From the IMG/VR virus record IMGVR_UViG_3300032322_001765, positions 156,868 through 220,867 of that record: a stretch of DNA of 64,000 nt; one strand, written 5' to 3'. Positions 24,309 to 24,479 of the stretch are shown in pieces. This DNA comes from a virus. Positions within the stretch are counted from its first letter, which is position 1, and the number at the start of each line of letters is the position of its first letter. A program made the position numbers and the translations under genes. Below the pieces are notes generated by a model, which was not told the DNA's origin, did not search any database, and was given only the letters and a program-made list of their open reading frames with translations.

Positions 24309-24337
24309 TTGACTAAATACGTTTGCTTGTTTAATAT
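24309..24337 (+). promoter_or_regulatory. Sigma70 promoter of the pqqA-like gene
   Basis: TTGACT (24309-24314), 17-bp spacer and TAATAT (24332-24337). Transcription would start about 20 nt before the ATG, upstream of an AGGAGGT ribosome binding site. Confidence 0.75.
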
Positions 24338-24362
24338 GAGCGTTCTTATACAGGAGGTAAAC

Positions 24363-24434
24363 ATGTGGACTAAACCTACAGCACAGGATATGCGTTTTGG
24401 TTTTGAAATCACTATGTATATTGCAAATCGCTAA
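24363..24434 (+). CDS. pqqA: PqqA-like PQQ precursor peptide
   Basis: This 23-residue peptide begins MWTKP and contains [13 protein letters not shown]. In PqqA proteins the substrate signature is G-x-E-[VI]-T-x-Y; Glu15 and Tyr19, cross-linked by the radical SAM enzyme PqqE to form PQQ, are both present at the canonical positions, and the length equals that of Klebsiella PqqA. PQQ is the cofactor of methanol and glucose dehydrogenases. The gene has its own sigma70 promoter, a perfect AGGAGGT Shine-Dalgarno sequence and a terminator. No PqqB, C, D or E homologue is seen in the window, so host enzymes would have to process it. The family call is firm; the benefit to the phage is inference. Confidence 0.9.
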   Translation: [23 protein letters not shown]

Positions 24435-24452
24435 TATACAACATTGATGGGC

Positions 24453-24479
24453 AAAAAGGTAGCTATGCTACCTTTTTTT
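24453..24479 (+). terminator. Rho-independent terminator after pqqA-like gene
   Basis: AAGGTAGC-TAT-GCTACCTT stem-loop with seven T residues. It separates the pqqA-like transcript from the next tRNA, only 3 nt downstream. Confidence 0.9.

Follow-up and report, generated by a model that had tools for sequence, protein, structure and literature searches.

The question raised by a 23-codon open reading frame in the tRNA array of a virus is whether it encodes PqqA, the precursor peptide of pyrroloquinoline quinone (PQQ), and what a phage could gain from it. The stretch of DNA analysed here (the window, 64,000 bases) comprises positions 156868-220867 of a 220,867-base IMG/VR virus record and harbors 27 tRNAs and a tmRNA, as identified by ARAGORN and Rfam. 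The major head protein of the record shares 66-68% identity with those of PA5oct-like Pseudomonas phages and Vibrio phage 2.275.O, and the record is a large T4-related phage, bona fide viral and not host contamination. At 33007-33412 of the window a possibly permuted (two-piece) tmRNA is observed, for which the Rfam families beta_tmRNA and tmRNA_permuted both give 137 bits.

The reading frame is located at 24363-24434 on the plus strand, between tRNA-Arg(acg) (24226-24302) and tRNA-Met(cat) (24482-24557), both encoded on the same strand and recognized by ARAGORN and the Rfam tRNA model. Its 23-residue product matches the Pfam family PF08042 (PqqA) with 39.4 bits (E 5.6e-10, cut-off 21.1) and the NCBIfam PqqA equivalog TIGR02107 with 39.5 bits (E 3.3e-10, cut-off 20), almost twice the curated cut-offs in both cases. 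A sequence-only reading had proposed the PqqA identity and a profile search as its check, and the score returned was a significant one rather than a low one. The Glu-X3-Tyr substrate residues are present at positions 15 and 19, with the spacing that had been claimed for the cross-link. When the window was mononucleotide-shuffled 200 times, a PqqA regular expression matched none of the resulting sequences, and searches of PHROGs and the PDB with the peptide returned no match. Judged by its sequence, the frame is a genuine phage pqqA encoding the PqqA precursor peptide.

The signals for translation and termination were confirmed as they had been proposed. The Shine-Dalgarno (SD) sequence AGGAGGT (24352-24358, plus strand) is a 7-nt anti-SD match positioned 4 nt upstream of the ATG at 24363, and an intrinsic terminator, AAAAAGGTAGC-TAT-GCTACCTTTTTTT, composed of a hairpin and a T-run, occupies 24453-24479 on the plus strand. 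The terminator region reaches -13.9 kcal/mol over a 51-nt stretch (fold z -3.1), and its hairpin is also found in the relatives L328 and L311. The third proposed element, a sigma70 promoter with a 17-bp spacer, fared worse: the candidate TTGACT-17-TAATAT (24309-24337, plus strand) is a weak 9/12 match, of which 8 promoter-like examples occur in the 2-kb region versus 6.0 +/- 2.4 expected, and it shows no evident conservation in relatives. Since the match is at chance level and not evidently conserved, a promoter of its own is not established for pqqA. Between the window phage and L328 or L311, the alignable unit extends from the ribosome site through the terminator while the flanks differ, which suggests that the pqqA cassette moves as a unit.

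Lone pqqA genes recur in many other viruses. A degenerate PqqA DNA pattern matched at least 120 viral contigs in IMG/VR, and a second pattern built on the tail type of the window peptide likewise matched at least 120, six of them common to the first set, so that both patterns together gave at least 234 contigs with an orphan pqqA; an alphaproteobacterial-type pattern yielded 3 viral contigs. About 164 distinct pairs of upstream and downstream neighbors were counted among the 235 viral pqqA loci listed (neighbor pairs served as the measure of context, pooled component clustering being uninformative), indicating that uptake or shuffling of pqqA happened repeatedly. Among the common neighbors are exonucleases, a major head protein, and a translation repressor resembling T4 RegA. 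In 8 viral contigs a protein that by eye is rubrerythrin-like lies directly upstream of pqqA. No match to pqqB-E or a PQQ dehydrogenase was obtained in the 234 viral stretches listed, which are mostly partial contigs; the pqqB-E queries were Acinetobacter PqqB, C, D, and E, which divergent relatives could escape, and they matched 26 of 115 bacterial loci. The matches of Acinetobacter phage MD-2021a, in which pqqBCD and a PqqE-like gene stand beside pqqA, were excluded as probably misfiled bacterial contigs.

Cultured phages harbor the gene as well. Nine genomes of Methylophilales phage isolates possess pqqA (Melnitz in four genomes, Venkman, MEP301, MEP401, MEP402, and P19250A), a count that leaves out the Methylophilales phages MEP431-434, HIM624-A, phiMB624-A, and Venkman EXVC038S of the taxonomy, and one spring podovirus among the annotated phage records also carries an orphan PqqA. 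PqqA is never named in the annotation of these nine genomes or of the spring podovirus: Venkman, MEP301, MEP401, MEP402, and P19250A have no annotated feature at the site, and in Melnitz and podovirus ctXG6705 the gene is hidden beneath an opposite-strand hypothetical ORF, which bears out the expectation that so small a gene would be missed by annotation. Four further queries covering several PqqA types detected no other phages, Pseudomonas and Klebsiella phages included, and no pqqA was found in the PA5oct-like relatives of the window phage.

What the gene would do for a phage may be considered from PQQ biosynthesis, in which PqqE joins the Glu and Tyr of PqqD-bound PqqA, after which a protease, PqqB, and PqqC act (PMC10906245). 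We regard it as probable that the phage supplies the stoichiometrically consumed PqqA, which is matured by the host and sustains PQQ-dependent alcohol oxidation, the supply step being what we infer. The short, probably translated unit of ribosome site, 23-residue frame, and terminator would give rise to the phage peptide; after infection, host PqqD would present it to host PqqE, which would join Glu15 to Tyr19, and the host protease, PqqB, and PqqC would complete PQQ. Each PQQ made uses up one PqqA, so that the supply of precursor may become limiting, and a strongly translated phage copy would therefore sustain the PQQ enzymes, furnishing cofactor for the PQQ-dependent alcohol dehydrogenases of the host and maintaining the flow of electrons and energy as the expression of host genes breaks down. 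The beneficiaries would be methanol dehydrogenases in the case of methylophages and alcohol dehydrogenases of unspecified substrate in the putative Burkholderiales host of the window phage. What counts against this account is that, among the several pqqA copies of Methylovorus, a single one is described as dominating PQQ synthesis (Ge 2015, in the form cited in PMC9851590). The benefit to the phage is not obvious, inasmuch as mature PQQ enzymes may outlast the lytic cycle.

Instead of boosting supply, the phage copy might replace host pqqA transcripts that are lost along with the degradation of host DNA and RNA. Large lytic phages of such kind carry tRNAs and a tmRNA to sustain translation, and the window pqqA is situated inside such an array; nevertheless, small methylophages have pqqA as well, and we hold replacement to be unlikely as a separate account, it being a milder form of precursor supply and inseparable from it by sequence.

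The conservation of the viral copies bears on whether they have any function at all. Scattered pqqA copies are abundant in the hosts, and 3 of 99 distinct viral peptides in the fetched set are identical to bacterial ones, as would suit a short gene that is common in methylotroph genomes and was acquired by chance as a functionless passenger. This account is nonetheless doubtful, as the peptide is kept while synonymous sites diverge: 26 contigs that share one and the same peptide spell it in 24 different DNA versions (mean pS 0.56), and in the pattern-free codons pN/pS amounts to 0.257/0.715 = 0.36 in the first set and 0.233/0.410 = 0.57 in the second, a sign that purifying selection also acts on residues that the patterns did not fix. 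The translation signals argue against it likewise, with an SD-like motif preceding 229 of 234 viral pqqA starts versus 8% of all ATGs, and an SD match of at least 5 nt in 93.6% of viral pqqA versus 36.6% of other long ORFs in the same contigs, a rough comparison, given the use of first-ATG starts. Moreover, a terminator-like hairpin lies downstream of 39% of viral pqqA versus 1.7% of random 90-mers (a 23-fold enrichment), and of 71% of the bacterial copies, and pqqA was intact at each of the six loci inspected from isolates or named phages.

Across the 234 viral loci listed, W2, P5, R11, G13, F14, E15, T17, and Y19 are invariant; most of these positions were fixed by the patterns, R11 and F14 being open in the first, so that conservation at the fixed residues is partly ascertained. 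Zero matches in IMG/VR were obtained with a codon-shuffled pattern of equal degeneracy, and none with a pattern that places A, C, or T at the first position of codon 15 (other G-initial codons lay outside the pattern) or with one that excludes T from the first position of codon 19. These results weigh on the notion of an inhibitor or decoy, in which the phage peptide would occupy PqqD or PqqE or titrate the protease, lower PQQ, stop periplasmic alcohol oxidation, and redirect metabolism. An excess of orphan substrate could in principle titrate PqqD, and no maturation gene stands alongside the phage pqqA; a decoy, however, needs binding and not the joined residues, yet Glu15 and Tyr19 are invariant, and hosts carry many pqqA copies themselves, which leaves such a role improbable.

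The whole 220,867-base record contains one copy of PqqA and no PqqD; its best radical SAM protein reaches 29.4 bits against the PqqE model TIGR02109, the cut-off of which is 381.35, and no match to a PQQ-dehydrogenase domain was found. The earlier remark that no other pqq gene is seen here therefore holds for the entire record with respect to PqqD and PqqE, and, as far as tested, only the supply of substrate to host enzymes is possible. About ten radical SAM proteins are encoded by the phage (window 698-11069; record 14512-19777 and 153235-156734), several being of the twitch-domain type (NF033640), two of the B12 type, and none of them PqqE; by eye, their genes lie near glycosyltransferase-like genes. 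An IscU-like scaffold and an A-type Fe-S protein, both assigned by eye at 147364-148242 of the record, might serve Fe-S enzymes, PqqE for instance. That one of these radical SAM proteins, some of which are weakly PqqE-similar, turns PqqA into PQQ or another product is very improbable given the low PqqE score, the absence of PqqD, and the predominance of twitch-domain and B12 types.

Supply of PQQ precursor to host alcohol dehydrogenases accordingly appears the most economical account when set against a decoy, a passenger, and self-maturation, and the best reading of the sequence evidence given the invariance, the orphan status, the strong ribosome sites, and the dehydrogenase-bearing candidate hosts. 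The idea of a stoichiometric precursor put forward in the sequence-only reading is thereby retained, whereas its choice of methanol dehydrogenase as the beneficiary is left in doubt by the signals of a Burkholderiales host.

Those signals emerge from comparison with bacterial genomes. Stringent bacterial PqqA matches fall mainly in Methylophilaceae and Methylophaga, where the gene is present in many scattered copies; in some bacterial genomes up to 12 of them, tandem or scattered, were seen. Methylophilaceae have been reported to possess 3-12 scattered pqqA but typically one pqqBCDE (PMC4109929), which means that hosts multiply the same component as the phages carry. The tail of the window PqqA is closest to Burkholderiales copies, one of which matches 19 of 22 residues; the phage PstS shows 76% identity to the candidate host genome G153, and the porin beside it 51% to a gene that this G153 contig carries at a distance of some 12 kb. 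Tail and PstS point to a host within Burkholderiales rather than to Methylophilaceae, and the host is not bound to be a classical methylotroph. The phage AhpC, unlike PstS, is nearest to another Burkholderiales genome, G336 (69%). G153 encodes five PQQ alcohol dehydrogenases above cut-off, and such enzymes occur in 4 of 5 other pqqA-positive relatives and in 0 of 3 pqqA-negative ones. The Burkholderiales lineages indicated by the tail and PstS carry several PQQ alcohol dehydrogenases, so that the enzyme which profits may be one of these and not methanol dehydrogenase.

Several neighboring genes of the window deserve mention in their own right. At 34051-36573, PstS adjoins a phosphate-selective porin (Porin_O_P), resembling a host phosphate-uptake set, and at 39876-41670 an AhpC-type peroxiredoxin is accompanied by a carboxymuconolactone-decarboxylase (AhpD-like) protein. 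A class V aminotransferase at 31798-32979, by eye similar to serine-glyoxylate aminotransferase, is a possible C1/serine-cycle gene.

The assumption that no phage pqqA had been reported proved mistaken. PqqA was described in one Lake Baikal virus population, VP_266, together with methanol dehydrogenase (Coutinho et al. 2020, PMC7678222), its predicted host being Methylophilaceae, and pqqA is also among the viral genes of reservoir sediments (PMC13188868); the open-access papers searched on OM43 phages make no mention of pqqA in those phages. Both VP_266, whose PqqA has been suggested to assist PQQ-dependent oxidation as an auxiliary function, and the window phage are T4-type viruses with a PqqA precursor, but the latter has no PQQ dehydrogenase domain match and its peptide is of Burkholderiales type; besides, the VP_266 report concerns one population, whereas pqqA here spans many phage lineages and cultured isolates. 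The viral gene resembles bacterial pqqA (PF08042/TIGR02107) in length, motif, Glu/Tyr spacing, and its organization as a stand-alone unit with a terminator, and differs in being phage-encoded and in having no pqqBCDE alongside in the 234 viral stretches listed. The methylophages Melnitz, Venkman, MEP301, MEP401/402, and P19250A share with the window phage an orphan, unnamed PqqA (23-24 residues), yet belong to other phage families and bear a Methylophilaceae-type tail (EVTMYVMNK or similar). As far as the literature searched shows, what is new is that pqqA recurs across many phage lineages and stands there as an orphan, together with the test of invariance and the peptide type from outside Methylophilaceae.

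The recurrence of a lone pqqA in hundreds of viruses suggests that viruses feed the alcohol-burning enzymes of their hosts. On balance, it is plausible that phages of PQQ-dependent alcohol and methanol oxidizers repeatedly took up only the consumable ribosomal substrate of a cofactor pathway and no enzymes, which would define a substrate-only class among auxiliary genes, and that the gene is a near-hallmark of methylophages, almost wholly unannotated, which extends to Burkholderiales phages outside Methylophilaceae. If the proposed function is true, phages would sustain methanol and alcohol oxidation through the single pathway component that every cofactor molecule uses up, and 72 bases overlooked by gene callers would suffice for an economical takeover of metabolism. 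Phages of the sea and of fresh water would thereby be linked to the turnover of C1 carbon, pqqA could serve to mark phages that infect PQQ-dependent hosts in a genetically simple way, and the limitation of PQQ by PqqA would become testable in cultured phage-host pairs such as OM43 with Venkman, Melnitz, or MEP401.
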